From Phoenix dactylifera (lineage: Eukaryota > Streptophyta > Magnoliopsida > Arecales > Arecaceae): a stretch of DNA of 64,000 nucleotides. The translations under genes were made by a program, and so were the position numbers. The DNA is taken from assembly GCF_009389715.1 (NCBI RefSeq), contig NC_052393.1:6138001-6202000 (forward strand), read 5' to 3'. The notes under the pieces are model-generated. The model was not told the origin of the DNA. It saw only the letters and a list, made by a program, of their open reading frames with translations, and did not search any database. This document shows positions 10,742 through 61,145 of the stretch, piece by piece; the stretch's first letter is position 1, and each line of letters opens with the position of its first letter.

Positions 10742-10783
10742 GAGGAACAAATGGTCAGTGCGAAAAACAAGAGGGCACTGCTC

Positions 10784-27100: not shown

Positions 27101-28380
27101 AAACCAACACTTGAACACCACCACTGCATGCAAAAGCCGCTTCTGTTAGCAGACGTTACGTTAATTAATCAGAATTTGTTATTCAATTGCTATCCTCAGT
27201 TTAATTATCAATATTCAATGATAATAAATAAATACAATTGAACTTTCCAACTATTTTCAAATAGAAACGTCAATGCATGAACTTTTCTAAATAATTCTGA
27301 AAACAGAGTATTTCAGGTAGCCATTACGTGTCACGCCTTGGAGGATGGAATGCAGTAAAACAGACGAAAGAGTGATTGTACCTGCCCTCTACCCACAGCA
27401 CAGACCTCCTGGGTGGTGCAGATGGACCCCGATCCCATCCCCACCCTCAACCCATCAACACCGGCCTTGATCAGATTCTGTGCCTGGGCTATTGTGACCA
27501 CATTACCCCCAATCACATCCAGCTGTGGGTACAGGTTCTTCGCATGCTTGATCATGTCAATCTGATATATGGAGTTCCCCTGAGAACTGTCCACCACGAC
27601 GACGTTCGCCCCAGCCTTCACAAGAAGTTCCAGCCTCTCCTTGTCCTCCTCCCTGGTCCCTATGGCCGCCCCCACCAAGAACCTGCCATCCGGACCCAAC
27701 GATGGCACCCCTAGCTTGGGGAAGCTCCGGATCCTCTCCACTTGCTCCGCCATGACCAGATCCACCACCTCCCCGTCCACCGCCACCAGCGGCGCGTACT
27801 CCAGCCCCTCCCCGGCCAAGAACGCCGCCACCTGCTCAAAATCGCAGCTTGCCGGAGCCGAAGCCGGGGCCGGCCGCATGTACTCGGAGACCGGCACGTT
27901 CTTGTCCGCAAGGCTCTCCCAGTCGGACAGCGCAACGACGCCAACCACCCTCGACTTAGCGGTGCCGGACTCGGTGACCAGGGCGTAGAGGGCGGAGTTG
28001 AAATCGGTGACATAGGCGATGCGGTCAGAGGGGGAGAAGAAGGCGGGGTCGGTGACGAAGGGGATGCGGCGGGACTTGGCGGAGCGGACGATGGCAGCCT
28101 GGTGGGCCGGGGAGGCGTTGCCGTGGACGATGGCGGCTCCGCCGAGGGCGGCCATCGCGACAGCCATGGCGGCCTCTGAGACGGTGTCCATGGGGGAGGC
28201 GACGCAGGGGATGGAGAGGGGTACGCGGCGGGAGAGGCGGGTGGAGAGGTCGACGGCGTCGGCGGGGAAGTCGATGTAGTGGGGGAGGAGGATCACGTCA
28301 TCGTAGGTGTAGGAGACGCCCTGGGAGAAGAGGCGCCCCGCCGCGAACCCGTCTTCGAGCTCGGACCAAGGTCCGTTCAT
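24159..28380 (-). CDS. IMPDH: Inosine-5'-monophosphate dehydrogenase, 4 exons, 502 aa
   Basis: Catalyses the NAD-dependent oxidation of IMP to XMP, the committed step of guanine nucleotide synthesis, in the cytosol. Coding exons on the minus strand are 28380-27382 (999 nt), 26941-26762 (180), 25575-25318 (258) and 24230-24159 (72). Every intron starts GT, ends AG and is in phase 0. The total is 502 codons plus TGA, the usual plant length. The N-terminal barrel half includes YDDVILLPH; a CBS-pair region lies at about 115-230; [10 protein letters not shown] carries catalytic Cys321. Exon 2 contains the IADGGI and MMGSFLAG phosphate-binding loops. The flap Arg417-Tyr418 is in SDARYLG, and the protein ends SYEKKPF. 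No broken residue or frameshift was seen. The three introns (440, 1186 and 1087 bp) hold no recognisable element. Confidence 0.96.
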
Positions 28381-29087: not shown

Positions 29088-29160
29088 CCTGGGCTACACG
29101 AATCTTCGGGAAATGACGAATCTTCGGGTTCCCAGGGGGTCGAATACCTGGGCTACACGA

Positions 29161-30915: not shown

Positions 30916-31299
30916 CTCGGGGCGCGCTGATGATGCCGGTGGCGGCGGCTGATGTTGGTGGACCGGCTCGTGTCGAAGGAGGAGAGGGTGGTGAAGCTTT
31001 CATGGTGGAGCTAGGCAACGAGAAGGGAGTTTCTTGCCTCTCTGCAGAGACTGTGGCGAGTGCTTCCCATGCTCTGTCGACCACTGTTCAAGCCGGGAGA
31101 ACTGGTTCGGAGGAGCTGGGCAGTCCGACCACAGAGAGCAGCTTCAATTTGCCAGTTGGGGCGGTGGTGACAAGGGGTGTGTCCGGGGCCTCGAGACAGG
31201 GGTCTCCGATTTTGGATCATGGGAGGGTTGTTGACCTGCTGAGAGCCTCAATCCAGGAAGGCAAGCTGGCTCCTGGTGCGGAGGGAGGTAATTAGTCTT

Positions 31300-34200
31300 A
31301 TGAAGGTGCTAGCTTGGAATTGTAGGGGGGCCGCCAAACCTTCCTTTTCCTCCTCTTTCAAGAGGTTAGTACAGCTTCATAATCCTGGAATTTGTTTCTT
31401 TTGCGAAACACGGGTATCCGGTGATGGATTACGTCGAGTTCAGCGGCGATTGGCACGTGATTGGGATTCCTTTGCAGTGGAGTCCCGGGGGTTATCCGGA
31501 GGCATTCTGATGTTGTGGAAGCGGGGTCTAGGTTCTGTGGATGTATTTTGTCATTGCTCTCAGCAAGTGGTAATGGTCATTTCAGAACCGAATGAACTCC
31601 CGTGGGTGTTGTGCGGGGTTTATGCTAGTACCGATTATAGGGTAAGGAGAACTCTTTGGGGAGAACTGACTAGTCTGCTGACCCAGGGAGTACCAACAAT
31701 GGTAGTAGGGGACTTTAACTGCATCTTAAGCTCAGAGGAGAAGAGAGGAGGTAGACAATACTCTGATTCGGTGGATAGAAGGGAGTTTCGTGAGTTTGTG
31801 GGGAGGAATGGATTGGTGGACCTCGGCTTTTCTGGACCTCGTTTCACCTGGTGCAATAATCAATCTGGGCAGGCTAGAGTGTGGGAGCGGATCGACAGGG
31901 CCATTGCATCCCCAGACTGGATCCAGCGTTTTCCTGCCTACCAGGTTAGTCATCTAGCTCGGATTGCTTCTGACCACTGCCCTCTCTTGATATCGACAGA
32001 GGCAAGATCGGTGCATCATAGCCCCTTCCGCTTTGAGAAGTTGTGGTTGTCATATCCCCAGTCATGGGATGTAGTCAGGGAGGCGTGGAGTGTGCCAGTA
32101 CGAGGGGATGCCATGCAGAGGGTGTCACGCAGGTTGGAGCTCACCAAACGCCGTCTTCGGCGTTGGAACCGGGAGACTGTCGGCAATATCTTTAGGAGGT
32201 TGGAGGAGGTGGAGGCAGTGATTTTGGACGCCCAGGGGAGGGAGGATCGAGGAGAGGACCTTACGGAGGCCGATATGGTGGATCTGCGGCGATCAGTAGC
32301 TTCCCACCATTCCTTGTTGCGCCAGCAGGAGATCTTTTGGAGATAGAAGTCCAGAATTCAGTGGGTTAAGGATGGTGACCGGAATACTTGTTTTTTTCAC
32401 CGATCGACAGTTATTAGAAGGCAAAGAAATATGATCCGGTCCTTAAGGGTTGAGGCGGGCCACCGGGTGGAGGAGGATTCGGCAGTTAGACAGGTATTAG
32501 TCAACTTTTTCAGGTCCAGATGGACTGAGGATGGGGGGATACTTGAGACGGGTCTACTTCCCCGGTCGGAGATCAGAGTGGATGAGTCAGAGAATACAGC
32601 CTTGATTCGGCCAGTGTCAGAGATGGAGGTGCAGGAGGCGGTTTGGGGTCTGGCAGAGGATAAGGCCCCTGGACCGGATGGCTTCCCACCATTCTTCTTC
32701 CGTAGATATTGGTGTATTATTCGAAGGGCAGTGGTGGAGGCAGTACAGTTTTACTTTACCCATGTAAGGATGGCAGATGATTGGAAGGCCACCTTTATCA
32801 CATTGATACCGAAGCGTGTGGACGCTTCGGAACCGAGTCATTATAGACCCATCAGCTTGTGTACCACCTTGTACAAGGTGGTGGCGAGGATCATGGTGGG
32901 GAGGATGAAGAGCCTGATGCCACGGATCATTAGCCGGGAGCAGGGAGCCTTTGTGGGGGGGAGGAGTATCTCAGACAACATTTTACTGGCTCAGGAGATG
33001 ATGGGGGATCTGCAGCGAGCCTCTAGGAGGCGATGTTTGATGGCAGTGAAATTAGACATGGAGCGAGCCTATGACCGGATCCGGTGGGACTTCCTGCGGA
33101 GGGCACTAGAGAGTCTTGGTTTCCACCAGGTTTGGATTGATTGGATTCTTGGATGTGTGCAGGGGCCTAGCTTCTCTATTCTGGTCAACGGCACGCCATC
33201 GCCCTTCTTCCGTGCTACTATGGGACTTCGCGAGGGATGTCCTCTGTCCCCATTTCTGTTTATTATTTGCTCGGATGTTCTTTCCCGGGCTATGCATGCT
33301 GCTTGTGGGAACCGGGAGCTGGCACCCTATTGCCCAGCCCCGGGTGCCCAACCTCTCTCACACTTATTATTTGCAGATGACTGCCTCCTACTCGCCAGGG
33401 CGCGGGTGTCGGATGCCAGAGCCCTCCAGGGCGTACTGACAGAGTATTGTGTGATGTCTGGGCAGAGGGTTAATCTACAAAAGTCCACTATCTTTTTCAG
33501 CCCTAGCACTGAGGGGAGGGTGCGCCGGGAGATCAGGGCGACTATGGGGATACAGGAGCAGACGGGGGCCCTGGTGTATCTTGGGGTTCCTATCACAGGG
33601 AGGAGGTTACGGGTGGCAGAGTGCGCCACCTTATTGGAGAGGGTGCGGAGCAGACTAGAGGGATGGAGGGCATCGTCTCTCTCTATGATGGGGAGATTGA
33701 CGTTGATCAGGTCAGTTCTGTCTTCCATGCCTATTTACTTGATGGCTCACACAGTGGTGCCAAAGACTGTGCTGGTGGGGATTGAGCGGCTTATGCGGAG
33801 CTTTCTTTGGGGCTCCTACCGGGGGGGCCATGGGATACATTTGGTGGCTTGGGAGAGAGTGTGTTTACCACTGAGGGAGGGTGGGCTGGGGGTGCAGTCA
33901 CTCTTGGTGCGACGCGAGGCTCTTTTGGCACGGAGGGCGGCACAGCTTGTCCTGGAGCCGCTTGGTCATTGGAGCCAGGTTATGATAGCCAGGTATGGCC
34001 GAGCGGGTCTCGAGGGCCAGGCGATAGGACGGCGGAGGAGATCCTTTATGTGGCGAGAGATTGGGAGGTATGTGCCTATGGCCCTGGCGCATTCGAGGTG
34101 GCTGATCGGCGACGGGCGGAGTGTTGATGTGATGGAGGATCCATGGGTGGATGCAGTTCCTTTGAGACTATGGCCGACGACTATTAGCATTGAGGTGGGG

Positions 34201-35445
34201 GAGGGACTCCGAGTTTCTGATCTTCTCTGGCCGGGAGAGGCAGAGTGGGATGGTGACAGGCTGGGCCAGCTATTTGGAGAGCACCTAGTTGAGCGGGTTC
34301 GGTCGATTCCCCTTCCGGGATCAGCAGGTCCAGATGTCAGGGTCTGGAGCACTACCTCTCGAGCGAGTGTTGGGATCAGAGAGGTTGCCAGGCTCCTTCA
34401 GTCAGGCTCACAGTTGGGCATAGATTGTGGCTGGGTGTGGAGGTTTGGGCTACACCAGCGGGTTGCTCTCTTCCTGTGGAAGGTGGCCTGGGAGCGGTTG
34501 CCGACATGCTCAGTGTTGTGCAGACGAGGTTTGAGCCTTTCCCCCTCTTGTCCAGACTGCGAGGTGGAGGAGTCGGTGGATCATGTTTTATTCCACTGCG
34601 TATGGGCGAGAGGGGTTTGGAGCTTGACTGGGATTCTGGGGGCCACCTGGAGTGGGAGAGATCTCTTCCTGGAGGAGGTTCGGCTGTGGGCTAGTGCACC
34701 TCAGACACGGGGATTGGCTATCAGGGCGTCTTGTACAGCGTACTAGATATGGCTGGCCAGGAACGCCCGAGTGTTTGGTGAGCGTCGGCTATCCCTACGT
34801 TTTGTGATGGAGCGGGCCAGAGCTCAGGCTGTAGAGATTGTTCAGGTAGAGCCAGCTCATCGACCTTTGATAGCTCGGGACATCTGGGGTTCCTATATTG
34901 CTTCGGCAGCTCCTCACAGGGTATTCTTTACCTGGGAGCCCCCACCCCCGAGCTTCCTCAAGGTCAATTTTGATGGCTCTGTCATGGATGGCGGCAGGAG
35001 GGGAGGGGCCGGATTTGTTGTTAGGGGCCCGAGTTTTGATGTGGTGGCAGCAGGGGGCCATCAGATTTTTGATATCTCTGTTCCAGGGGCAGAGCTGCGA
35101 GCGGCATGGATGGGCCTGTCTTATGCGTGGCGGGTACTCCGAGCGAGCTCGGTTTTTCTGGAGGGTGATTCGGCCACGGTGATTAGCTGGATCCGTAAGG
35201 GCCCGGGTAGTCATGCATGTGTTCATCCTTTGCTTCGCGACATTTGGACAATGGTGGGAGAGGGGGTTACATTTCAGGCCAGGCATGTATATCGTGAGGC
35301 CAATGGGGCAGCCGACTGGGTGGCTGCGTATGTAGCGAGCCACTCAGGAGGCACCCTTTGGGCTGGGGTGAGAGAGATGCCCGGTGCCCTTCGGGACATT
35401 TTGTATTCTGACTCCTTAGGGTGTATTCGTACCCGTGTTGTATGA
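31300..35445 (+). pseudogene. LINE ORF2 (endonuclease, RT, RNase H), two in-frame TAG
   Basis: Starts at the ATG for MKVLAWNCRGA, which is already the first strand of the apurinic-type endonuclease domain (GDFNCIL, FTWCNN, SDHCPLL). The reverse transcriptase follows (APGPDGFPPFFF, YRPISLCTTLYK, FADDCLL), then a zf-RVT zinc-binding segment near 34550-34620 (CPDCEVEESVDHVLFHC) and an RNase H domain (NFDGSV, GGAGFVV, AELRAAW, EANGAADWVA) ending GCIRTRVV. One frame spans all of it except TAG codons at 32344-32346 and 34744-34746. Each is a single C-to-T change from CAG. ORF2 therefore cannot give full-length protein without suppression. Confidence 0.92.
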
Positions 35446-47098: not shown

Positions 47099-47103
47099 AT
47101 AAT
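47099..47103. repeat. Target-site duplication of the Tat element, left
   Basis: ATAAT, repeated at 61141-61145 directly after the right LTR. Confidence 0.85.
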
Positions 47104-48307
47104 TGTTGCTGGAAATTGGACCAGGGGGCCGCCGCGAAGCCGGGGAAGGAGGAGCTCCCGCTGCTACAGGGGGCGGACGGCGGTGCGCCGGCCGGCGACG
47201 TCCTCCTGGAGGGTGTAAATCCTGCAAAAAGCCGGTGGCCGGGCTCCCCGGCGCCGGCCCTCCGATGCCTAAGTCAGAGGGGGCAAGTATGTGGAGAGAG
47301 CAAGGGAGAGAGTATATGGAGAAGACAGCAAGAACATTTGGATAAGATAAAGAAGACGAAGAGGATGATGTCCTCAATTGTGTCCGTGCTTTCCGGCGGG
47401 TTCAGTCCCGGGGATCTGTTTCCGTTTCTGTTTTTCCCCCCCCTTGGTTCTCCCAGGTTCCCTTTTATAGGAGGAGATTACGTTACCTGGGAGGTAACCG
47501 GGGGATTTGTCCCTGTCTGTGATAATTGGGCACGATTTGGCCCATTTATGGCATAGTGGAGAACGGGGCCGAATCAGACCAGAACCAGGGAGTTGTCACG
47601 GTCGATCGGACCTGTTGGAGTGGTTGAACCGCCGGCCGTAGCGGGCCTGGGGTCTGTGGATGGTAAGTGCATTTATTACCGAATGAACCGGCGGTCAGGT
47701 AGAGCCATGCGCTCTGATGGTTCAGTGATCCGGAGATCGTCTTGGGCCGTGTTCATTAAATGCCTGAGTGCATCGGAGACTTGAGGGAGTCTCATGCATT
47801 AATGGCAGGTCGTGCCGAACGCCTGCGGAGATCTTATGCCTTGATGGCTTGGAGATAGTGGCAGGTCGCAAGCCGTAGGAGTTGTCAGTCCCTTGGACTT
47901 TAGGCGGAGGTTGAACATTTGGTTAAGGCATCGGCTCGGCAAGGGTGCCGAGCCGAGCTGGTCGCCCAATGGGGCGCCTTGTGGCGGGGTTGCTTCAAGT
48001 ACTCCTGGTCGGCGCCCTTTAGTCGAGCGCCTTCCTGGTCGGCATCTTTTGGCCGAGCAGCTTTCCGGTCGGCGCTCTTCGGCCGAGCGGCTTTCCGGTC
48101 GGCACTCCTTGGCCGAGCAGCTTTCCGGTCGGCGCTCTTCGGCCGAGCGGCTTTCCGGTCGGCACTTCTTGGCCGAGCAGCTTTCCGGTCGGCGCTCTTC
48201 GGCCGAGCGGCTTTCCGGTCGGCACTCCTTGGCCGAGCAGCTTTCCGGTCGGCGCTCTTCGGCCGAGCGCCTCCGTGGATATATAACTTAGGGTTTTTTC
48301 CCTAACA
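47104..48307 (-). repeat. 3' LTR of the Tat element (left)
   Basis: 1,204 bp. It contains TATAAAAGG on the minus strand at 47461-47469 (U3 promoter copy). A 30-bp tandem array at 48001-48270 is mostly missing from the other LTR. Confidence 0.95.
48001..48270. repeat. 30-bp tandem array in the 3' LTR, nine units
   Basis: Nine units of exactly 30 bp. From the third unit on, two variants alternate (CTTTCCGGTCGGCGCTCTTC and CTTTCCGGTCGGCACTCCTT types), so the real period is 60 bp. In the other LTR only the first unit and 24 bases of the second remain. Confidence 0.95.
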
Positions 48308-48320
48308 CTACCCCCCGACT
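48308..48320 (-). other. Polypurine tract of the Tat element
   Basis: On the minus strand, AGTCGGGGGGTAG directly abuts the 3' LTR. This is the expected place for plus-strand DNA priming. Confidence 0.6.
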
Positions 48321-48696
48321 TCCGAGCTCCAGTTGGCTATCAGCTGGAGCGCGGGAAGTAGCTTTAATTGGGTCATCACGAATTCCGAAAATTTTGATTT
48401 ACTGTGCGTTTTGAGTTATCGAACGCTTCGAGGTGCCTTTAATAGGCGGCGTCTCTTCTTTTCCGAAGAGCCTCATTATTGGGACACCTTTTGCGAAGCG
48501 TCCTCGCGTCGTGGGCTCATGATAGGGCCGCACGATCTTCGATTGCGGACGCCTTTCCGCACGATCCGATGGGGCGCTTCGACGTTCGAAGCGCTAGCCC
48601 TAATTAAATGCGTCGTTCTGTCTTTTAGGCCGACACGTGTTATCATCTAACCAAGATGCAGCGCTTTCTTTGCTGATCCAGGCCATTGGGGAGGTC

Positions 48697-48704
48697 TATA
48701 TAAA
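48697..48704 (+). promoter_or_regulatory. TATA box of the opposite-strand gene in the Tat element
   Basis: TATATAAA, 139 bases before the ATG at 48843. A CCATTGGGG (reverse-CAAT type) word lies 13 bases further upstream. The following leader is pyrimidine-rich, as in plant core promoters. Confidence 0.5.
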
Positions 48705-48842
48705 CTCTCCCCCGGTCTCCCTGTTCTCTCTCTATTGCTTTCTGCTTCCAGCTTCCTATTCTCCCAGCCTTCCTCAGACCGAAGTCCCTTTTCTCCGGCA
48801 TCTTTCCCAGGTCCCCCTTCTTTTTGATTTCCCTCTCTTGTA

Positions 48843-51057
48843 ATGGGTTCTTTGCCTAGCGAAGTAGTATCCACCATGAGTGTCCTGGAGGTCGAGATGA
48901 CCGAAGAGTGGTTTTTCCCTCTTCACGGGTTCCGTTTGGAACCCGCCAGGCGAAGGGATCGGGTAACCGATCCTCCGGTAGGCCGGATCGGAGTGCACTC
49001 GGAGTCACTCTGGGCCGGCCTCCGATTTCCTCTTCACAGCTTTGTGAATGAGTTGCTGGCGGTATGCCAGTTGGTTCCGGCGCAACTCACTCCAAACGCT
49101 TGGAGGACAGTGATGGGTTTCCTGTCACTGTGTTTACTACAGGGGATTCCTACCTCTGTCAACGTCTTCCGGCGACTTTTTATTTTCAAGTCGAACCCGG
49201 GAGACGGGGAGTGGCTCTACATCGCCCTCCGGGTGGGTCGGCCACTTTTTCATGGTGCCCCCTCATCCATTCATGGTTGGAAGGAGAAATTCTTCTTCCT
49301 GGGTTCTGAACGGTCCTGGGGGTTTGACCCCAGGTGGAGGCCGGCCCAACTTAAATCCATCAACAGGCTCCCCCAGCTTTCTCCGCATGAGCAGGAGATC
49401 TTCGATACCATCCGCAGCCTTGGGGACGGGATTTTGCTGAACGGCCTCATTAGCGAGGACGCCCTGGTGAACGTGGGCTTGAGCTCGGCACGTCCTCAGG
49501 GTAAGGATAGTTACAGCAACTTCTTATCTCCTTATTGTTCTAATGTTCTAATTTTGCTTATCTTTGCAGACATCGCAAAAATGGTGACCAAGAGCGAAGT
49601 CCTTTACGCCCGCTTCCAGAAGAGGGCGGCCGAACTCTCAGGAGAACCGACCGAGCCGAGGAAGAAAGCAAAGACCTCGGCGAAGACCTCGACGACCACA
49701 ACAGTTGAGGCGCGCGCTTCTCGCCCCGTGCGCCCTGAGGCTGGTCGGGGAGAGGGCGTGGGCTCTGGCGGAGCCACGATGGCACTTCCGTGTCCGGTGC
49801 CGATTTCGCAAGTCCCTGGTCGGCGGGAAGCTCCAAATTCCGACCAGGGAGGGAGGACCTCAACAGATCTGGCGCTCGCACGCCCCACCTCTACCACGCA
49901 GCGGTCCGGTCAGCCGTCTACTCGACCCCAATTCCCCAGCTCTGAGCCGGGGAATAGCCAAGAAGCAACGGGGTCGGCCGCACCCAGGCCAGCTGAGGCC
50001 GGTCTGGCGGGTTCTTCGGGTCCTCAGGAGCGGGTGCCTTACGCTCCTGGATGGGCTGTTTTCGAGGGCGACTCGGCCCTCGATAATGCACAAGTGGCGC
50101 GCGAAGTTCTTCGGGTCGCGCTGCTCCCGGCCGACTAGGCCAAAATTCGGTCCATGAACTACGGCGAGTTCATGGACTCCGCTATTTGCTCTTCCATCCG
50201 AGTAAGTCAGCTTTTATCTTTGTGCAAATTTGTGTTTCGGCTTAAAACTGTTTCTTACATGTCCCTCTTGCAGCGCCTCCACGAGACCGAGACGATGATT
50301 CACATCATCCAGGACTATCGGGACCGGGCCCGAAGGCATCAAAGGGGGCGCGAGGAGGCCGAAACAAAGTTCCTCGCGTCTGAGGCCGAGCAGAAAGTGC
50401 TTCAAGCGAAGCTAGGGGCGGCTGAAGACGAGGTTCGGACCCTGGTTGCCGAACTTGAAGAGGAGAAGGGCGCGCACTCTTTGACTAGGTCCGAAGTGCG
50501 CGCCGCGGAGGCCCGCCGGACGGAGGCCGAATCGTCGCTCGCTATAACGCGAGCAGGAGGTGGGGGAGGCTCGAATAAAGGTCCGAGATCTCGAGATCCG
50601 TCTACTTGGCGTACAATCTCTGCTCGCGGATCGCGAAAGAGAAATAAAGATTTTGGAGCGGAAGGCCGCCTACCACGAGGCTCGAGAGAAGGAGGCCCGG
50701 GAGCAGGCCCAGGACGCCGTCAAGCTCTTCCGCGAATCGGAAGAGTTTCGCGACTTGATGGAAGAGGAAGGCGTCAATGGTCTCATCCAGGGCTTCAAGG
50801 ACTTCCGCAATCAGTTGCGGCGACTTCTCCCAGATTTCGACCTTAGCCTGCTTCAACCAGGCGCTGGGGTCGAAAACCCAGAAGCGGAGGCGGAGGTAGA
50901 GGTTCCAACCTCTGGCGGGACCGACCAGGAGGGTCAAGCTGAAGAAGGCGAGATCGTTCTCGAGGTCACCGAGGCAGCTCCCAAAGCCACCGTGGGGGCC
51001 TCGGCCGCAGAAGAGCCAACTGTTCCTGAAGTCGCCGGGCCTGAGCCCTTGGTGTAG
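48843..51057 (+). pseudogene. Antisense ORF of the Tat element (putative gypsy-type transposon family), 3 exons, degenerate
   Basis: A spliced gene on the strand opposite gag-pol. Exons are 48843-49500, 49570-50201 and 50274-51057; introns (69 and 72 bp) start GTAAG and end GCAG. The N-terminal half (WFFPLHGFRLE, ESLWAGLRFPL, GWKEKFFFLG) resembles the plant family recalled in Pfam as Transposase_28, which despite its name has no shown transposase activity. The last exon is rich in Glu, Ala and Arg with heptad-like spacing (a probable coiled coil) and ends in an acidic tail. It is broken twice: TAG at 50136-50138 in exon 2, and a frame change near 50544-50550 that looks like one inserted base. 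Intron 1 is also open in frame, so unspliced RNA would read through it. Additional antisense ORFs are known in Tat-lineage elements; their role is unknown. Confidence 0.75.
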
Positions 51058-51567
51058 TTTTCCCCTTTTTCCTATCTTCTTTTTCTTTTTGTAAGCCGGA
51101 GCGGCCTCTATACTTTGTTAAGGCCGGGTCCGAGCTCTTGTACTAGGCCTCCGGACTTTTTGAAATGAATATTCATTTGTGTGGAAACTCGTCTATTGTA
51201 GTCTAAGTTTCTCTGCTCGGATCTGTTTTAGGTTCCGAGGATATGCGCTCTAGGGCCTGAGCTTTTCCCGCCACAGGGTTTTGAGTTAGAGTTTGGCTTG
51301 CCGAGCTCTATTGCTCGGTTCTTCGACTAATGGTATAGCAACGCTTGTGCTTATACTAAGGGTTTGGGCTCGGAACGTTTTTCCGAGCCTAGTCCAGAAT
51401 TCGACTAAGCCCTAGGACGGTCGTTAGGACTTGGGACTTCTTAATGCGGCGAATTTCGAATCCGAGCCTCGGGTTGCCGGGGCGAACCGGATTCTTTTCT
51501 TACAAATGGACTGCATACCCGTCAGCCCGTGACGGGGATTCACCGGACTTGCAACAATGTGTCGGTG
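51058..51567. other. 3' flank of the antisense ORF inside the Tat element
   Basis: A T-rich stretch then GTAAGCC, and AATGAATATTCATT near 51164, may include a poly(A) signal for the plus-strand transcript. No coding region was seen. Confidence 0.35.
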
Positions 51568-53175
51568 TCATGAGCACTTCTTCGCCGAGGCGATCGAAGA
51601 CGCTCCTCTGTTCGGTGTCCACTTTTTGAGGACATCGGCAGAGAAATCCAATAATGGGTAATGTAAAAACATTAAATAAATGGGTACCTTGTACCGTATG
51701 CGTCCTTGCGCCGAGGCGACTGAAGACGCTTCTCTGCTCGGACTCCGTTCTTCGAGGACGTCGGCAGAGAAATCCAATAATGGGTAATGTAAAAACATTA
51801 AATAAATGGGTACCTTGTACCGTATGCGTCCTTGCGCCGAGGCGACTGAAGACGCTTCTCTGCTCGGACTCCGTTCTTCGAGGACGTCGGCAGAGAAATC
51901 CAGAAGCAGAATAGATAATGTAAAAAACATTAAATAAATGGGTACCTTGTACCGTATGCGTCCTTGCGCCGAGGCGACTGAAGACGCTTCTCTGCTCGGA
52001 CTCCGTTCTTCGAGGACGTCGGCAGAGAAATCCAATAATAGGTAATGTAAAGACATTAAATAAATAGGTACCTTGTACCGTGTGCGTCCTGGCGCCGAGG
52101 CGACTGAAGACGCTTCTCTGCTCGGACTCCGTTTTTGGAGGGCGTCGACAGAGAAATCCAATAATAGGTAATGTAAAGACATTAAATAAATAGGTACCTT
52201 GTACCGTGTGCGTCCTGGCGCCGAGGCGACTGAAGACGCTTCTCTGCTCGGACTCCGTTCTTCGAGGACGTCGGCAGAAAAATCCAGAAGCAGAATAGAT
52301 AATGTAAAAAATATTAAATAAATGGGTACCTTGTACCGTATGCGTCCTTGCGCCGAGGCGACTGAAGACGCTTCTCTGCTCGGACTCCGTTCTTCGAGGA
52401 CGTCGGTAGAGAAATCCAATAATAGGTAATGTAAAGACATTAAATAAATAGGTACCTTGTACCGTGTGCGTCCTGGCGCCGAGGCGACTGAAGACGCTTC
52501 TCTGCTCGGACTCTGTTTTTGGAGGGCGTCGACAGAGAAATCCAATAATAGGTAATGTAAAGACATTAAATAAATAGGTACCTTGTACCGTGTGCGTCCT
52601 GGCGCCGAGGCGACTGAAGACGCTTCTCTGCTCGGACTCCGTTTTTGGAGGGCGTCGACAGAGAAATCCAATAATAGGTAATGTAAAGACATTAAATAAA
52701 TAGGTACCTTGTACCGTGTGCGTCCTGGCGCCGAGGCGACTGAAGACGCTTCTCTGCTCGGACTCCGTTTTTGGAGGGCGTCGACAGAGAAATCCAATAA
52801 TAGGTAATGTAAAGACATTAAATAAATAGGTACCTTGTACCGTGTGCGTCCTGGCGCCGAGGCGACTGAAGACGCTTCTCTGCTCGGACTCCGTTTTTGG
52901 AGGGCGTCGACAGAGAAATCCAGTAATAGGTAATGTAAAGACATTAAATAAATAGGTACCTTGTACCGTGTGCGTCCTGGCGCCGAGGCGACTGAAGACG
53001 CTTCTCTGCTCGGACTCCGTTTTTGGAGGGCGTCGACAGAGAAATCCAATAATAGGTAATGTAAAGACATTAAATAAATAGGTACCTTGTACCGTGTGCG
53101 TCCTGGCGCCGAGGCGACTGAAGACGCTTCTCTGCTCGGACTCCGTTTTTGGAGGGCGTCGGCAGAGAAATCCAT
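51568..53175. repeat. 126-bp tandem array in the Tat element, about 13 units
   Basis: The common unit is 126 bp (GGTAATGTAAAGACATTAAA, a GGTACCTTGTACC palindrome, CGCCGAGGCGACTGAAGACG, CTCGGACTCCG). A few units are a little longer and carry a CAGAAGCAGAATAG insert. Because the period is a multiple of three, long open frames of 588 and 627 codons appear on the minus strand; they are not believed to be genes. Confidence 0.95.
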
Positions 53176-53319
53176 CGATGAAGGAACGAGCCGAGCTCGT
53201 TGGTTGAAGCTGGTAAAGAATGAGCCGAGCTCGTTTGGCCAATAAAGACAACATCCCAACGTATCGGGGCATCCCGATGAACCGGGGTATCTCGACGTCT
53301 CGAGGCATCCCGGCCGAGG

Positions 53320-54357
53320 TCGGGGTAGGAGCACGAGCCGAGCTCGTCCGGTCAGAACCGCTATTCAACAATCGATGGAGCACGAGCCGAGCTCGTCCGG
53401 TCAGAAAGGACCGCTACTCAATAAATGGAGCACGAGCCGAGCTCGTCCGGTCAGAAAGGACCGCTACTCAATAATCGATGGAGCACGAGCCGAGCTCGTC
53501 CGGTCAGAGAGGACCGCTACTCAATGGTCGATGGAGCACGAGCCGAGCTCGTCCGGTCAGAGAGGACCGCTACTCAATAATCGATGGAGCACGAGCCGAG
53601 CTCGTCCGGTCAGAGAGGACCGCTACTCAATAAATGGAGCACGAGCCGAGCTCGTCCGGTCAGAGAGGACCGCTACTCAATAATCGATGGAGCACGAGCC
53701 GAGCTCGTCCGGTCAGAGAGGACCGCTACTCAATGGTCGATGGAGCACGAGCCGAGCTCGTCCGGTCAGAGAGGACCGCTACTCAATAATCGATGGAGCA
53801 CGAGCCGAGCTCGTCCGGTCAGAGAGGACCGCTACTCAATAAATGGAGCACGAGCCGAGCTCGTCCGGTCAGAGAGGACCGCTACTCAATAATCGATGGA
53901 GCACGAGCCGAGCTCGTCCGGTCAGAGAGGACCGCTACTCAATAATCGATGGAGCACGAGCCGAGCTCGTCCGGTCAGAGGACCGCTACTCAATGGTCGA
54001 TGGAGCACGAGCCGAGCTCGTCCGGTCAGAGAGGACCGCTACTCAATAATCGATGGAGCACGAGCCGAGCTCGTCCGGTCAGAGAGGACCGCTACTCAAT
54101 AAATGGAGCACGAGCCGAGCTCGTCCGGTCAGAGAGGACCGCTACTCAATAATCGATGGAGCACGAGTCGAGCTCGTCCGGTCAGAGAGGACCGCTACTC
54201 AATAATCGATGGAGCACGAGCCGAGCTCGTCCGGTCAGAGGACCGCTACTCAATGGTCGATGGAGCACGAGCCGAGCTCGTCCGGTTAGAGAGGACCGCT
54301 ACTCAATAATCGATGGAGCACGAGCCGAGCTCGTCCGGTCCGAGAGGACCGCTACTC
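53320..54357. repeat. 53-bp tandem array with higher-order structure in the Tat element
   Basis: About 20 copies of a 49-53-bp unit centred on GCACGAGCCGAGCTCGTCCG and ending in three types: ...CAATAAATGGA (short), ...CAATAATCGATGGA and ...CAATGGTCGATGGA. The types recur as blocks of 209 bp (starts near 53422 and 53631) and 260 bp (53843 and 54103). The flanks (53241-53320 and 54358-54450) share CATCCCGACGTCTCGGGGCATC-type words with each other. Confidence 0.93.
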
Positions 54358-54700
54358 ATGTCTCGACGCCTCGAGCTTCCCGGTAACCGGGGCATCCCGA
54401 CGTCTCGGGGCATCTTGACCGTAGCCAGGGTAGGAGAACGAGCCGAGCTCGATGGAGAGCGCACCATGAACTCATGGACATCTTCAGGGAGTCCACGCAG
54501 GTACTCCATCATCCCGAGGTATCAGGGCATCCCAACCGTAGTTAGGGAAGAAGAATAAACCTGATGCCATGAGATAATCAAGAAAATTGGTGAGCTCGGA
54601 ATAAGTTCGCAAACCATCAATTTATCGTGAAATGAAATTCATAGAGTGAAATTCATAGAATGAAATTTAATGGTTGAATAATGAGGGACCCCTTAGGGTT
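54358..54700. other. Spacer between the 53-bp array and the end of pol
   Basis: Contains the flank repeats mentioned for the 53-bp array and a short direct repeat (GAAATTCATAGA) near 54636-54660. No coding region. Confidence 0.5.
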
Positions 54701-57700
54701 CTACTGGTGGTACACGCGGAGATTTTCAGAGCTCCAGCTCCGCGGAATGGGAGTCCCATCTAGAGACTCCAATTGGTAAGCTCCGGGTCGGCGAATGCGC
54801 GTGACTCGGTATGGTCCCTCCCAATTCGGGGCCAGCTTCCCTCGCTCAGTTGGTCGGGAGGTTTCAGCTCTTCTTAGGACAAGGTCCCCTGGTCTGAAAG
54901 ATTTGACTTTGACCCTGGCGTTGTAGTACTGAGCTGTCTTTTGTTGGTACCTCGCCATATGCACTCGGGCGACCTCCCTTGTTTCCTCGATCAGGTCGAG
55001 GTTGCCTCTGAGCTGCGAAGAGTTGGAGCTAGCATCGTGGTGCTCGACTCTTGGAGAGGGGAGCCCAATCTCTAGTGGAATGACGGCCTCCGTCCCATAT
55101 GTCAGGTTGAAGGGAGTCTCGCCGGTGGGGACGCGGAACGTAGTCCGGTAAGCCCACAGGACATTGTATAGGTCTTCGACCCATTGTCCTTTGGATTTGT
55201 CGAGCCTGGTTTTGAGACCCTGCAAAATAGTACGATTTGTTACCTCGGTTTCTCCGTTTGTCTGAGGATGCGCGACCGAGGTGAAGCGGTGGTCAATGCC
55301 AAGCTCGGAGCAGAACTCTCTGAAATGGATGTTGTCGAACTGGCGACCGTTGTCAGAGATAAGGATGCGGGGGAGCCCAAATCTGCAAATGATGGACTTC
55401 CAAACAAAATCCCGCATCTTCTGCTCGGTGATCCGGGCGAGGGGCTCAGCTTCCACCCACTTAGTGAAGTAGTCGATGGAGACGACCAGGAACTTCCTTT
55501 GCCCGGTGGCCAGAGGAAATGGCCCGAGGATGTCAATTCTCCACTGGGCAAAAGGCCAAGGGGAGCTAATAGAAGTCAGAGGAGCCGAGGGCCGGCGCTG
55601 AACATTGGCGTTCCTTTGGCACCGGTCGCATCTTTGGACGAAATCCATAGCATCCTTCTGGAGTGTCGGCCAATAATATCCTTGGCGCAGAATTTTATGG
55701 GGCAAGGCTCGTCCTCCCAGATGGTTTCCACAAATTCCTTCGTGGACTTCGCGCAGGGCATAATTAGCTTCCGTTGGGCGAAGGCATCTGAGAAGGGGAG
55801 AGGTGAAGGATTTCCGATAGAGCTTTCCCTCGTATAGTATGTACCGGGTGGCGAGGCGCTTGATTCGGCGAGCCTCTCGTACATCAGCAGGGAGGGTTTC
55901 GTCTTGTAGATAGCTGATGAGTCCATCCATCCAGCTTGGCTCGAGCTCGGTGCAGAGGGTCTGCTCGGGCTCGTCTATGCTGGGCTTTTGGAGATATTCC
56001 AGGACTGCCTCTTTGGGAAGCTCGCTCATGCGAGAGGACGCCAGCTTTGATAGCTGGTCGGCCCTGAGATTCTCCGACCTGGCAATATGTTGAATGTGGA
56101 AAGAGTCCAAGGTCGAGGCGAGATCTCGTACCTTCTGGAGATACTTCTGCATGGTCGGGTCTCTGGCTTCGAAGTCGCCCATAATTTGGTTGACGACGAG
56201 CTGAGAATCACTGAAGGCCTTCAAGTCCTTCACTCCTAGCTCTTTGGCTAGCTTAAGCCCGGCGACGAGCGCTTCATACTCCGCCATGTTATTGGAAGCA
56301 GGAAACTCGAGGCGCAGGGCCTGCTCGGCGACCACCCCCTCCGGGCTGGTGAGAATAAATCCTGCTCCACTACCCCCCGAGTTTGAAGAGCCATCGACAT
56401 GTAGAGCCCATGTAAAACTCGGGGTCCGCTCCAGCGGTGGCTCGGGTTCAGGCTCGACCTCATCTGGTATGGTGCACTCGGCTATAAAGTCTGCGAGTGC
56501 TTGTGCTTTGATCGCCGGTCTGGGCTGGTACTCAATGTCGAATTCCCCGAGCTCAATGGCCCATTTAGTGATCTGACCCGCACGATCTGATCTCTGCAGG
56601 ATCTGCTTGACCGGCTGGTCAGTCAGCACAGCCACTGTGTGAGCTTGGAAGTAGGGTCGGAGCCTCCGCGCCGAGATGACCAGAGCATAGGCGGTCTTCT
56701 CAAGCTTGGAGTATCGGGTCTCGGCATCCCTTAAGACCCGGCTGGTGTAATACACCGGTTTCTGAAGTTTCCCCTCCTCTCGGACCAAGACCGAGCTTAC
56801 CGCAACAGGGGAGACAGCTAAATACAAGTAGAGGAGCTCACCCTGTTGAGGCTTCGTGAGTAGGGGAGGGGAAGCCAGCAGGTGCTTGAGCTCTTCAAAA
56901 GATTGCTGGCACTCGTCCGACCACAAAAAGTTCTTCGGCTTCTTGAGGGCTGCAAAGAATGGAAGGCAGCGCTCGGCTGAGCGGGAGATAAACCTCCCGA
57001 GGGCTGCCACTCGGCCCGTGAGCCGCTGTACCTCCTTGACCGTCCTGGGAGGCGTCATCCCTTGGAGGGCTCGGATCTTCTCTAGATTGGCCTCGATTCC
57101 TCGTTGTGTAATGATGAAGCCGAGGAACTTGCCGGAGGTGACCCCGAATGCACATTTAGCTGGGTTGAGCTTTATCTGGTACTTTCGGAGTGTGGAGAAT
57201 GCTTCGTTGAGGTCGGCTATGTGGTCTTGCGCCGCCTTGCTTTTCACCAGCATGTCATCCACGTAGACCTCCATGTTTCGGCCTATTTGGTCTTTGAAGA
57301 TCCGGCTGACCAGCCTTTGATAAGTCGCCCCGGCACTTTTTAGACCGAATGGCATCACTTTGTAGCAGTAGGTTCCCCCGTCAGTGATGAAGGCTGTCTT
57401 TTCCTCATCTTCTGGCGCCATGCGGATCTGGTTATATCCGGAAAAGGCGTCCATGAATGCCAGCAGCTCGTGACCCAAGGTGGAGTCCACGAGCTGGTCG
57501 ATGCTGGGAAGTGGAAAGCTGTCCTTCGGGCAGGCTTTATTCAGGTCGGTATAGTCCACGCACATACGCCACTTTCCGCTAGCTTTTTTGACGAGGACCA
57601 CATTGGCGAGCCATTCCGGGTAGGATATCTCCCGGATGAAGCCGGCTTCAAGGAGCTTGCCGACCTCCTCGGCTGCTGCTCGTTGTCGTTCAGGGGCGGC

Positions 57701-60121
57701 GCCTCGCTTCTTTTGTCGCACGGGCTTGCAGGTCGGCTTCACCTGAAGCCGGTGGACCATGACCTCCGGGTCTATCCCCGGCATGTCTACAGGCGACCAG
57801 GCGAAGACATCCATATTGTCCCGTAGGAAGTCGACGAGGTGACTCCTCTCGTTTTCGCCAAGGCCAGAGCCGACCTGCACGGTTAGCTCGAGAAAGTTCT
57901 CTCGTAGGGGAACTTGAATTAACAACTCACCAGGCTCTACCCGCTCTTTCTGGGGGTTGACCCGTGCCTCCATAACTTCAGTCAAGGGCTGGTCAGTCGT
58001 TGGGGCAGGCACCTCGGCTGGTCGTCCTGCCTCGTGGGTCGCTAGGTAGCATCGCCTTGCCACCATTTGGTCCCCTCGGACTTCACCGACTCCCTGGCTG
58101 GTGGGGAATCGCATCAGCAGGTGGTGAGTTGAGACCGCTGCTCGGAGGGCGTTGAGTCCTGGCCTTCCAAGGATGGCGTTGTAAACCGAGGGCAGGCGTA
58201 TCACAAGGAAGCTCATACTCACGGTACTTTCACGAGGGGCGAGCCCGGCTGTGACCAGAAGGTCGATCTCGCCCTCTACTGGGACTGAATCCCCAGTGAA
58301 TCCAACTAGCGGAGCATTCATCCTCCGTAGCTGTTCTTTTGTCATCCCCATTTTGCAATAAGCATCAAAATACAAAACATTCGCCGAGCTTCCATTATCA
58401 ACCAGGATGCGTTTTACATCAAATTTATTTATGATCATGGAGATGACCATGGCATCATCATGGGGAGTTTCGACTCCTTCTAGATCGTCATCTGAGAAGG
58501 AGATGGCTTCAGAGGTGCGCGGGCGCTTCGAGGAGGCTCCTTCCCCTGAGGCTTCCCCAGCCGAGGTCCCTCCTCGGATAGTGTTGATGACGCCGGCGAT
58601 GGGCCTGTTGGCATTGGAACCTTCAGGCTGTGCTGCTCCTTCGGCTGGCTTCTTCCCTTCACGCCGGCCTTGCACAAACCGATCGAGCACCCCTCGGCGA
58701 ATGAGTGCTTCGATCTCATTTCGGAGCTGATAACAATCCTCGGTATCATGGCCGTGATCCCGGTGAAAACGACAATACTTCCGGAGATCACGCCGGATTC
58801 TGGTGTCTGGCTTTGGAGGGGGGAGCCGGATGCAATCTCGATTCTCAATCTCCATGAGGATTTCAGCCCGAGGAGCATTGAGGGGAGTATACTTTTCATA
58901 CCTCCCTTCAGGTGCACGGGCCTGCAGTGGGAACCTCGGGCGGAGTGACCTCTGCTGCGGCGGTCCTCTCAACCGGGGTGGACTCTTCGGGCAGGGCGGA
59001 TTCTTAGCTCGTCGTGGAGACGGGCTTCTGGGTCGGCCGCGCTCCTCGCGGCGTCTTTTCTTGGGGTTTTGCTCGGTTCCACCCCGCCTAACTGCCACGG
59101 CCTCTTCTGCCTTGGCATACTTCCGCGCCCGAGCGAACATTTCGGTGAGGTCCGCTGGGAAATTCTTCTCAATCGAGAAGAGGAATCTGTAGGACCGGGC
59201 TCCAGTCTTCAGCGCCGACATGGCGATTGACTGGTCAAGCTCCCGGACTTCCCATGTTGCGGTGGTGAACCGGTCCAGATATTCCTTGAAGGACTCTCCC
59301 TCCTTTTGTTTGATGTCGAGGAGGGAGTCGGATGTCCGCCGCTGGGGCTGGCTAGCGGCGAAGTTGCCGGCAAACTGTCTGCCGAGCTGCTCAAAGGAAG
59401 AGACAGTACTCGGCTTCAGCCCGGTGAACCAAAGCCGGGCTGGCCCTCGGAGCGTCGCCGGAAAAGCTTTGCACATCATGACCTCCGAGGCTCCTTGTAG
59501 GGCCATTAAGACCCGGTAACTCTCCAGGTGGTCCAGGGGATCGGCCTTGCCATTGTAGGGCTCCACCTGGGGCATTTTGAACCGTAGTGGGACCGGTTCA
59601 TCTTCGATCTCCGGGGAGAAAGGAGACTTCGTAGTGAACTCGAAGTCGTTATCACGTCCTGATTTTCTCCCGTGGAGCGCCTGGATTTGGCGTTCCAACT
59701 TCTCGACCTTCTTGTCGAGTTCATCATTCTGGAGGATCGCTGCAGCGGTTCGTTCGAGCGCAGGTTGCCCTGGAACCGACTCGGCTTCTGAAGGCTGTGG
59801 CCAGCCTCCGTAGCCTCTGGCTGGATGCTCTCTCCGGAGGGAGGCCTGGACTTGGGAGTCCCGACCTCGATGGGGAAGTCCGCTTGTAGGAGGCTCCGGT
59901 TGAGCCAGAGCCGGAGGAGGCGGTGTCGTTGGGATGCCCCTGGGTTGCAAGCTTTGGACAACGGTAGCCAAGGCTTGCACTTGTTGCACCAGGGCATCAA
60001 ACTGCTCCGGCCGAACCTGAGGGGTTGACTCGGCCGGAGGTGGTGAGTTCCGGACGGAATGCTCAGGACTGGGTGGAGGACGTCGAGAGGCGTTGGAAGC
60101 CCCTTTGCTTCTTAGCTTCAT
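54701..60121 (-). CDS. Gag-pol polyprotein of the Tat element, 1,806 aa
   Basis: One open frame from the ATG at 60121 (an upstream TTG was ignored) to a stop at 54701-54703. Domains in order, approximate residues: Gag 170-345; a knuckle-like CRFHRDHGHDTEDC at 450-463; aspartic protease with LVDNGSSANVL (Asp575; DNG in place of the more usual DTG or DSG); reverse transcriptase 820-1010 with YVDD at 953-956; a first RNase H with tether-like features 1095-1215; a second RNase H at 1237-1362 (HVDGSSN, AEYEAL, SDSQLV, ENLRADQLSKLA); and an integrase with an HHCC finger at 1460-1503 and a DDE triad at Asp1530, Asp1590 and Glu1626. The C-terminus (FRPGDLVLRR ... WEGPYRV) shows no chromodomain. The dual RNase H is a known Tat trait. 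No stop or frameshift is present, so it may be able to move. Confidence 0.95.
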   Translation of the reverse strand: MKLRSKGASNASRRPPPSPEHSVRNSPPPAESTPQVRPEQFDALVQQVQALATVVQSLQPRGIPTTPPPPALAQPEPPTSGLPHRGRDSQVQASLRREHPARGYGGWPQPSEAESVPGQPALERTAAAILQNDELDKKVEKLERQIQALHGRKSGRDNDFEFTTKSPFSPEIEDEPVPLRFKMPQVEPYNGKADPLDHLESYRVLMALQGASEVMMCKAFPATLRGPARLWFTGLKPSTVSSFEQLGRQFAGNFAASQPQRRTSDSLLDIKQKEGESFKEYLDRFTTATWEVRELDQSIAMSALKTGARSYRFLFSIEKNFPADLTEMFARARKYAKAEEAVAVRRGGTEQNPKKRRREERGRPRSPSPRRAKNPPCPKSPPRLRGPPQQRSLRPRFPLQARAPEGRYEKYTPLNAPRAEILMEIENRDCIRLPPPKPDTRIRRDLRKYCRFHRDHGHDTEDCYQLRNEIEALIRRGVLDRFVQGRREGKKPAEGAAQPEGSNANRPIAGVINTIRGGTSAGEASGEGASSKRPRTSEAISFSDDDLEGVETPHDDAMVISMIINKFDVKRILVDNGSSANVLYFDAYCKMGMTKEQLRRMNAPLVGFTGDSVPVEGEIDLLVTAGLAPRESTVSMSFLVIRLPSVYNAILGRPGLNALRAAVSTHHLLMRFPTSQGVGEVRGDQMVARRCYLATHEAGRPAEVPAPTTDQPLTEVMEARVNPQKERVEPGELLIQVPLRENFLELTVQVGSGLGENERSHLVDFLRDNMDVFAWSPVDMPGIDPEVMVHRLQVKPTCKPVRQKKRGAAPERQRAAAEEVGKLLEAGFIREISYPEWLANVVLVKKASGKWRMCVDYTDLNKACPKDSFPLPSIDQLVDSTLGHELLAFMDAFSGYNQIRMAPEDEEKTAFITDGGTYCYKVMPFGLKSAGATYQRLVSRIFKDQIGRNMEVYVDDMLVKSKAAQDHIADLNEAFSTLRKYQIKLNPAKCAFGVTSGKFLGFIITQRGIEANLEKIRALQGMTPPRTVKEVQRLTGRVAALGRFISRSAERCLPFFAALKKPKNFLWSDECQQSFEELKHLLASPPLLTKPQQGELLYLYLAVSPVAVSSVLVREEGKLQKPVYYTSRVLRDAETRYSKLEKTAYALVISARRLRPYFQAHTVAVLTDQPVKQILQRSDRAGQITKWAIELGEFDIEYQPRPAIKAQALADFIAECTIPDEVEPEPEPPLERTPSFTWALHVDGSSNSGGSGAGFILTSPEGVVAEQALRLEFPASNNMAEYEALVAGLKLAKELGVKDLKAFSDSQLVVNQIMGDFEARDPTMQKYLQKVRDLASTLDSFHIQHIARSENLRADQLSKLASSRMSELPKEAVLEYLQKPSIDEPEQTLCTELEPSWMDGLISYLQDETLPADVREARRIKRLATRYILYEGKLYRKSFTSPLLRCLRPTEANYALREVHEGICGNHLGGRALPHKILRQGYYWPTLQKDAMDFVQRCDRCQRNANVQRRPSAPLTSISSPWPFAQWRIDILGPFPLATGQRKFLVVSIDYFTKWVEAEPLARITEQKMRDFVWKSIICRFGLPRILISDNGRQFDNIHFREFCSELGIDHRFTSVAHPQTNGETEVTNRTILQGLKTRLDKSKGQWVEDLYNVLWAYRTTFRVPTGETPFNLTYGTEAVIPLEIGLPSPRVEHHDASSNSSQLRGNLDLIEETREVARVHMARYQQKTAQYYNARVKVKSFRPGDLVLRRAETSRPTERGKLAPNWEGPYRVTRIRRPGAYQLESLDGTPIPRSWSSENLRVYHQ

Positions 60122-60137
60122 GGCAGCGAACTCGGTC

Positions 60138-60155
60138 CCTTCCTCTAGCGCCAAC
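60138..60155 (-). other. Primer-binding site of the Tat element (tRNA not identified)
   Basis: Directly next to the 5' LTR the minus strand reads GTTGGCGCTAGAGGAAGG. TTGGCGC at this place is common in plant gypsy elements. Which tRNA it pairs with was not determined. Confidence 0.5.
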
Positions 60156-61140
60156 TGTTGCTGGAAATTGGACCCGGGGGCCGCCGCGAAGCCGGGGAAG
60201 GAGGAGCTCCGCTGCTACAGGGGGCGGACGGCGGTGCGCCGGCCGGCGACGTCCTCCTGGAGGGTGTAAGTCCTGCAAAAAGCCGGTGGCCGGGCTCTCC
60301 GGCGCCAGCTCTCCGATGCCTAAGTCAGAGGGGGCAAGTATGTGGAGAGAGCAGGGGAGAGAGTATATGGAGAAGACAGCAAGAACATTTGGATAAGATA
60401 AAGAAGACGAAGAGGATGATGTCCTCAATTGTGTCCGTGCTTCCCGGCGGGTTCAGTCCCGGGGATCTGTTTCCGTTTCTGTTTTTCCCCCCCTGGTTCT
60501 CCCAGGTTCCCTTTTATAGGAGGGGATTACGTTACCTGGGAGGTAACCGGGGGATTTGTCCCTGTCTGTGATAATTGGGCACGATTTGGCCCATTTATGG
60601 CATAGTGGAGAACGGGGCCGAATCAGACCAGAACCAGGGAGTTGTCACGGTCGATCGGACCTGTTGGAGTGGTTGAACCGCCGGCCGTAGCGGGCCTGGG
60701 GTCTGTGGATGGTAAGTGCATTTATTACCGAATGAACCGGCGGTCAGGTAGAGCCATGCGCTCTGATGGTTCAGTGATCCGGAGATCGTCTTGGGCCGTG
60801 TTCATTAAATGCCTGAGTGCATCGGAGACTTGAGGGAGTCTCATGCATTAATGGCAGGTCGTGCTGAACGCCTGCGGAGATCTTATGCCTTGATGGCTTG
60901 GAGATAGTGGCAGGTCGCAAGCCGTAGGAGTTGTCAGTCCCTTGAACTTTAGGCGGAGGTTGAACATTTGGTTAAGGCATCGGCTCGGCAAGGGTGCCGA
61001 GCCGAGCTGGTCGCCCAATGGGGCGCCTTGTGGCGGGGTTGCTTCAAGTACTCCTGGTCGGCGCCCTTTAGTCGAGCGCCTTCCTGGTCGGCATCCTTTG
61101 GCCCTCCGTGGATATATAACTTAGGGTTTTTCCCCTAACA
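60156..61140 (-). repeat. 5' LTR of the Tat element (right)
   Basis: 985 bp. It is the same as the left LTR apart from about 12 substitutions, three one-base indels and the loss of 216 bp of the 30-bp array. TATAAAAGG on the minus strand at 60510-60518 is the likely promoter of the genomic RNA. Confidence 0.95.
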
Positions 61141-61145
61141 ATAAT
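61141..61145. repeat. Target-site duplication of the Tat element, right
   Basis: ATAAT, matching 47099-47103. Confidence 0.85.

Follow-up and report, generated by a model that had tools for sequence, protein, structure and literature searches.

Antisense open reading frames (ORFs) for the TRP28 domain are already known from Retand retrotransposons. A study that used ORF Finder reports them in 97% of Retand clusters and predicts DNA binding for their products (Vicient 2025, PMC11963269). A survey that required ORFs of 250 codons gives a figure of 23% for Retand elements with the domain (PMC6317226); the former study accepted shorter ORFs as well. Nearly every recently active Retand element is reported to have an antisense gene, the product of which has been depicted as one ORF, and gene23 of the maize element Grande is reported to have its own promoter. 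The literature searched yielded no description of introns in an antisense TRP28 gene; Steinbauerova et al., Gomez-Orte 2013 and Kejnovsky 2006 may mention them, and a word search of the main text of PMC11963269 gave no word beginning with "intron".

Here we describe such a gene in a 64-kb stretch of Phoenix dactylifera DNA, hereafter called the window. The explanation that best accommodates the sequence data, to which we assign a probability of roughly 0.8, is a Retand antisense accessory gene that is spliced, has its own TATA promoter, is under selection for its protein and encodes a possible nuclear accessory factor.

A complete Retand-type element surrounds the gene

The preliminary description of this locus had placed the gene inside a Tat element, and a complete element of this type was indeed found around it at 47104–61140. 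Its parts are as follows.

47104–61140, minus strand: whole Retand/Tat-type LTR element, 14.0 kb, defined by the LTR pair, its ends and the TSD
47099–47103 and 61141–61145: TSD ATAAT, 5 bp and perfect, flanking the element
60156–61140, minus strand: 5′ LTR, 985 bp, paired with the 3′ LTR
47104–48307, minus strand: 3′ LTR, 1204 bp, paired with the 5′ LTR
48007–48272: expanded 30/60-bp tandem array inside the 3′ LTR
54701–60154, minus strand: gag-pol, a single open frame of 1817 codons, from the ORF list and Pfam searches of four pieces
53328–54358: 53-bp tandem array between the antisense gene and pol
51583–53174: 126-bp tandem array between the antisense gene and pol

The two LTRs are 98.4% identical over 954 aligned columns. 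At a substitution rate of 1.3 × 10−8 per site and year, 12 mismatches in about 951 LTR sites place the insertion roughly half a million years ago. LTR ends of the form TG..CA together with a 5-bp TSD are a criterion of the Retand lineage, and both are present. The four pieces of gag-pol give the Pfam domain order gag, RT, RNase H, second RNase H (RVT_3) and integrase, with RT_RNaseH at residues 159–255 and RVT_3 at residues 303–398 of pol piece 3, and integrase in piece 4. Placement of aRH between RH and INT is a further Retand criterion, and the order equally fits Ogre; the full succession from gag to integrase is described for both Ogre and Retand elements (PMC6317226). The region between pol and the 3′ LTR, from 48308 to 54700, measures 6.4 kb and carries a PF04195 gene on the opposite strand, the published lengths of this region in Retand elements being 2.9–6.6 kb (PMC11963269). 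By these sequence features the element is a Retand (Tat-clade Ty3/gypsy) retrotransposon. Membership of Ogre was considered and rejected, as gag-pol is a single ORF of 1817 codons and no plant mobile domain was found in exon 1 of 13 family members or in the other exon pieces of the window gene. An Rfam search over the window gave no match at gathering scores.

A three-exon gene opposite to gag-pol

A model of the antisense accessory gene with three exons and about 690 codons, predicted on the plus strand at 48843–51057, is well supported.

48843–49500, plus strand: exon 1, start ATG at 48843, with the TRP28/Transposase_28 domain (Pfam) at residues 52–115
49501–49569, plus strand: intron 1, 69 nt, GTAAG..TGCAG, phase 1
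49570–50201, plus strand: exon 2, an Ala/Pro/Ser/Gly-rich linker with the basic cluster RKKAK
50202–50273, plus strand: intron 2, 72 nt, GTAAG..TGCAG, phase 0
50274–51057, plus strand: exon 3, Glu/Ala/Arg-rich, with the terminal TAG at 51055–51057

All three exons join in frame once both introns are removed. The G+C content of introns 1 and 2 is 32% and 38%, respectively, versus 57–63% in the exons. Seven GTAAG..TGCAG pairs of suitable spacing occur on the two strands of the window, and only these two introns pass a filter for intron-like composition with G+C-rich flanks. Both introns are multiples of three and free of stops in the subfamily to which the window copy belongs, so that an unspliced RNA would keep the frame too. 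The window copy itself carries an in-frame TAG at 50136–50138 in exon 2 and a frame change near 50.54 kb in exon 3.

The preliminary description had proposed a spliced gene opposite to gag-pol, carrying one TAG and one frame change that were to be sought in other copies. Its ATG, its two GT-AG introns and its in-frame joins were confirmed, and the splice sites are kept among copies (see below). The TAG and the frame change are real, and both are private to the window copy among 40 copies.

Close copies in the genome

Copies were sought in the genome (773 Mb, 2391 contigs) by a DNA search with 48600–51200 as the query. The best 40 of 1576 candidates were scored and every one proved to be a copy at 94–100% identity, so the genome holds at least 40 close copies. 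All 40 keep the ATG and the GTAAG and TGCAG ends of both introns, and the stop codon is kept in all 34 that are untruncated. Among these 34, 20 are without an in-frame stop or frame change and 14 have a lesion. Two stops are each common to two copies and neither pair consists of sisters; in this 40-copy sample, therefore, no clade has visibly descended from a broken gene. Intron 2 measures 70, 71 or 73 nt in several close copies whose exons are free of lesions, and two of its length changes are inherited by several copies. One copy (L042) has 21 small exon indels and looks like unpolished sequence; it was left out of the selection counts, which use 39 of the 40 copies, and kept in the 40- and 34-copy counts.

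Six of the copies (L043–L048) are mosaic, matching the window at 91–99% until about 50.7 kb and then at about 80% and 54–64%. By this pattern of identity an exchange within exon 3 has replaced their C-terminal tail. For the loci at C16 and C12 a similar exchange may have taken place: exon 1 is 99% and pol 97–99% identical there, with no nearby exon-3 match among the best 150 listed.

Diverged copies and the evidence for splicing

PF04195 scored above its cut-off at all 150 places scored, which were the best 150 of 3465 candidates. From these matches 20 diverged copies were picked by hand; they form a few related groups and so are not independent. Their exon-1 proteins are mostly 58–79% identical to that of the window. 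In 18 of the 20, exon 1 ends at precisely the same residue and a GTAAG donor comes next, the exceptions being L050 and L058. With the acceptor fixed by exon 2 homology, intron 1 runs from GT to AG at the homologous place in 13 of 14 testable copies, and L053, the exception, is without the AG. For intron 2, the AG lies where exon 3 homology predicts it in 13/13 testable copies; a GTRAG donor stands 69–80 nt above it in 11 of these, and two are without such a donor.

Intron 1 varies from 69 to 118 nt in these 13 diverged copies. Its length is not a multiple of three in five of them, and one intron that is a multiple of three contains an in-frame stop. Intron 2 lengths are not multiples of three in 9/11. 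Such lengths and the in-frame stop mean that splicing would be needed to make the protein in many diverged copies. On this comparative evidence, splicing of the antisense gene is well supported.

A listed gene copy lies within 20 kb of 21 of the 40 listed pol copies and an exon-1 match within 10 kb of 10 more, and gene and pol are on opposite strands in all 31 pairs. Two other pol copies have an opposite-strand exon-3 match about 5 kb away (C8:6655607 and C364:22865, by eye), and the remaining listed pol copies have no gene match within 20 kb among the matches listed.

A conserved TATA word upstream of the start

A candidate promoter had been proposed on the basis of a TATA word and a CAAT-type word, and these fared differently when copies were compared.

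48697–48704, plus strand: TATA word TATATAAA, kept in 40/40 close copies

In diverged copies, TATATAW occurs within 350 nt upstream of the start in 17 of 20; in 300 first-order Markov trials the mean was 0.10 of 20 and the maximum 2. On the reverse complement, where TATATA reads the same, it occurs in 4/20. The distance from the TATA word to the start ranges from 146 to 328 nt, and is 139–147 nt in the window's nearest kin. The conserved word fits a putative promoter belonging to the gene itself.

The CAAT-type word is an inverted CCAAT (ATTGG) at 48685–48689 of the window copy. ATTGG is found in only 2/40 close copies, and of the 17 diverged copies with a TATA word a single one has CCAAT or ATTGG in the preceding 60 nt; we attribute it to chance and reject it as a promoter element. 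A bacterial-type promoter scan of the window was also set aside as not meaningful for a plant promoter.

Purifying selection on the protein

Substitutions among the close copies were split into those private to one copy and those inherited by two or more. Expected counts came from 5000 simulations in which the same mutation types, CpG context included, were placed at random in the coding sequence. For inherited substitutions in 39 copies, 67 nonsynonymous and 96 synonymous changes were counted versus 109.6 and 50.6 expected, giving a dN/dS of 0.32. The 33 closest copies give 34 and 44 versus 51.4 and 26.0, or a dN/dS of 0.39, which is the safer estimate because the six further copies are mosaics. 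None of the 5000 simulations was as low as either value. Private substitutions have dN/dS values of 0.75 and 0.78, which are below 1 (P = 0.011 and 0.032) and much nearer 1 than the inherited ones. Stop codons were not significantly rarer than expected in this substitution test.

The constraint extends over the whole gene, with dN/dS values of 0.30, 0.39 and 0.31 for exons 1, 2 and 3 (39 copies). As a control for frame, the other two plus-strand frames give 1.65 and 2.16. The mirror frame on the minus strand gives 0.38, as expected because its third positions coincide with those of the gene; this frame is not open, there being no minus-strand ORF of 120 codons or more there. Between families, exon 1 shows dN/dS values of 0.14–0.22 (window versus 11 other members), ratios that are rough because dS exceeds 1.4 in 9 of the 11 comparisons.

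Insertions and deletions follow a similar pattern. Among 39 copies, frame-breaking indels that are inherited number 0 in 2073 exon columns, 2 in 141 intron columns and 3 in 383 UTR columns, and private ones, counted as distinct events, number 9, 3 and 6, respectively. Stops in exon 1 were counted by eye in 20 of the best 150 listed copies, and in an equal-length piece of pol in 18 of the best 150; given these similar counts, the gene seems to decay no faster than pol after insertion.

That purifying selection preserves the protein in replicating lineages is well supported by these substitution patterns. A dN/dS below 1 was the check that the preliminary description had called for, and its opposite, a lack of purifying selection among copies, is not what the inherited values of 0.32–0.39 reveal. 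It had also suggested that the gene could regulate the element through either its RNA or its protein; the selection data favour the protein half of this idea, the function being putative.

Predicted features of the protein

Exon 1 matches PF04195 (Transposase_28/TRP28) with an E-value of 2.4 × 10−14 and 53.7 bits against a cut-off of 26.2, which bears out the likeness to Transposase_28 that had been suggested at the outset. The exon-1 proteins of 13 family members can be aligned over 219 residues to the exon end, and all 13 match PF04195. Of the 20 diverged loci, 12 were selected manually for this alignment. A stop codon excluded L063, and L049, L051, L056, L058, L059 and L062 were omitted for want of a single clean full-length frame or for a differing end; L050 is also outside the alignment, with no separate reason.

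Exon pieces of the window gene other than exon 1 have no Pfam match above a cut-off. The plant mobile domain is accordingly absent from both sets searched, as exon 1 of the 13 members shows PF04195 only and the window's other exon pieces are without a match. IMG/VR viral contigs contained no confirmed relative of exon 1, and no solved structure is similar to it by sequence at E-values up to 1, whether exon 1 is used alone or as a 13-member profile.

Exon 2 contains one NLS-like basic cluster, a weakly predicted NLS. Exon 3 has the Glu/Ala/Arg-rich composition noted before and lacks proline in its first part. The coiled coil that had been proposed along with this composition is only suggestive: of 2000 shuffles in each case, 402 equalled the heptad periodicity of exon 3a, 1023 that of the whole of exon 3b and 93 that of residues 1–65 of exon 3b.

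Proposed mechanism and alternative explanations

We propose that RNA polymerase II would start at the gene's own TATA promoter, which adjoins the 3′ LTR, and read in the direction of the pol 3′ end, and that the antisense RNA would be spliced at both introns. The predicted protein would have the TRP28 domain at its N terminus, followed by a low-complexity linker containing the NLS-like cluster and a Glu/Ala/Arg-rich tail that is probably helical. It could act as a nuclear accessory factor of the element, in transcription or in the integration of new copies; the odds of such a role, which is argued by analogy from published work on Grande (PMC7264820) and a DNA-binding prediction (PMC11963269), are about even.

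Retrotransposition copies the element by way of its sense RNA. In that RNA, which is what gets reverse-transcribed, the antisense introns run backwards and are unspliceable, so they would survive each round. The laboratory retrotransposition reporter has the opposite arrangement, with an intron in sense with the element and inside an antisense gene (PMC12786077).

Four other explanations deserve consideration. The gene could be one unspliced plus-strand ORF in which the supposed introns are AT-rich in-frame stretches, since both are stop-free multiples of three in the window's subfamily and frames of about 742 codons are present in 14 of the best 150 listed copies (by eye). This reading is hardly tenable, and is largely refuted by intron lengths: intron 2 takes lengths of 70, 71 and 73 nt in lesion-free copies, with two of these changes inherited, and diverged introns are often not multiples of three (5/13 for intron 1 and 9/11 for intron 2) or, once, contain an in-frame stop. 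It is unlikely, if less markedly so, that the antisense RNA is the functional product, through sense overlap, double-stranded RNA or small RNAs, and that the protein is incidental. Such a transcript would be complementary to the 3′ portion of the sense RNA, and antisense RNAs are discussed in reviews as regulators of LTR elements (PMC7264820, PMC12786077); however, overlap of RNAs predicts neither the selection on codons and frame (0.32–0.39 versus 1.65 and 2.16) nor the conservation of splice sites between families. An RNA role beside the protein may exist and is compatible with the selection data.

The introns and the promoter also resemble those of a host gene, which could have been captured recently by this one element. 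We find this scarcely credible in view of the 40 or more close copies, the presence of PF04195 at 150/150 scored places, the opposite orientation to pol in 31/31 pairs and the report of antisense TRP28 in 97% of Retand clusters (PMC11963269); an ancient capture of a host gene is possible. Finally, the gene might be a decaying relic that no longer matters to the element, as the broken window copy, the lesions in 14 of 34 untruncated copies and the private dN/dS of 0.75–0.78 could be taken to suggest. A relic is highly unlikely, however, because lesions do not mark clades, inherited changes are constrained, and stops are about as frequent in exon 1 as in pol (20 and 18 of the best 150).

A spliced, protein-selected accessory gene is the reading that we carry further. 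It seems reasonably probable that antisense TRP28 genes of Retand elements are as a rule of this kind, with two conserved introns, their own TATA promoter and selection on their protein, that their introns could be kept only in the antisense orientation, and that ORF surveys often caught exon 1 alone. An open frame of 224–242 codons, below the 250-codon requirement, surrounds exon 1 in 44 of the best 150 listed copies (by eye). This is the length that a stop inside intron 1 or shortly after it would give, so the introns could explain part of the gap between surveys (23% versus 97%). If true, this may be the reason that only fragments of the gene turned up in surveys of uninterrupted frames.

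The three-exon model of about 690 codons would supply the entire protein for folding, expression and localisation work, along with exact junctions that RNA-seq data can be searched for. Codon selection in replicating lineages suggests that the protein matters to the element, and turns the role of this ORF into a testable question.

Comparison with known systems

Ogre elements are related members of the Tat clade and also have extra ORFs and an intron (PMC6317226). The Ogre intron is on the sense strand between two gag-pol ORFs (PMC6317226), whereas the window element has one gag-pol ORF and its introns are antisense. The extra ORFs differ as well: in Ogre the plant mobile domain is reported in 57% of elements (PMC6317226), while the window gene has PF04195 instead.

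Two described genes also resemble the window gene. ORF4 of Retand in Silene latifolia (Kejnovsky et al. 2006, via PMC7264820) is likewise antisense, carries PF04195 and resides in an element with a tandem repeat. Gene23 of Grande (Gomez-Orte 2013, via PMC7264820) is likewise an accessory gene on the antisense strand of the 3′ internal region; a promoter of its own is reported upstream of it, where the window gene has the conserved TATA word. ORF4 is described as an ORF and as weakly expressed, and transcription and nuclear location are reported for gene23 (PMC7264820), whereas the window gene is described here from its sequence.

The antisense TRP28 ORFs of Retand elements, as described in PMC11963269, share with the window gene the Pfam domain, the place between pol and the 3′ LTR, the antisense orientation and a long region often with tandem arrays. 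To this description the window family adds, for one genome, a predicted three-exon structure that extends across families, selection on codons and a conserved TATA word.

Exchanged gene tails

Six close copies of the antisense Transposase_28 gene elsewhere in the same genome (loci L043-L048) share 91-99% identity with its first 2.1 kb. Beyond this point, across window positions 50700-51200, all six carry a different tail, with identity of ~80% and then 54-64%. The tail switch is a recombination event within exon 3 that swaps the C-terminus.

Two further copies of the host element in this genome carry both pol and exon 1, with identities, for the pair together, of 97-99% in pol and 99% in exon 1:

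G000:C16:2636586-2645264, element copy
G000:C12:8945121-8953559, element copy

No match to exon 3 was found near either copy among the 150 matches listed, and their tails have possibly been exchanged or lost.

Tandem arrays of the element

Two of the element's tandem arrays are as follows:

51583-53174, 126-bp array (unit of 42 codons)
48007-48272, 30/60-bp array of ~9 units, in the 3′ LTR

Two minus-strand frames, of 627 and 588 codons, are open across the longer-unit array, probably for no other reason than that 126 is divisible by three. The 30/60-bp array is nearly missing from the 5′ LTR, so its length probably shifted during or after insertion of the element.

Other features of the window

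1630-3936 and 8438-10750, minus strand, tandem pair of subtilase genes (DNA identity ~70%)
14407-16467, minus strand, 686-codon ORF with Gly-rich repeats
27331-28380, partial IMP dehydrogenase frame with an ATG start
29113-35445, L1-type LINE split across several open frames

The strand opposite the Gly-rich ORF is likewise open, for 661 codons. The IMP dehydrogenase frame covers only profile positions 1-197 of 345, and the gene may extend further through introns. Domains recognized in the LINE are DUF4283 with a zinc knuckle, an endonuclease, a reverse transcriptase with zf-RVT, and RNase H.
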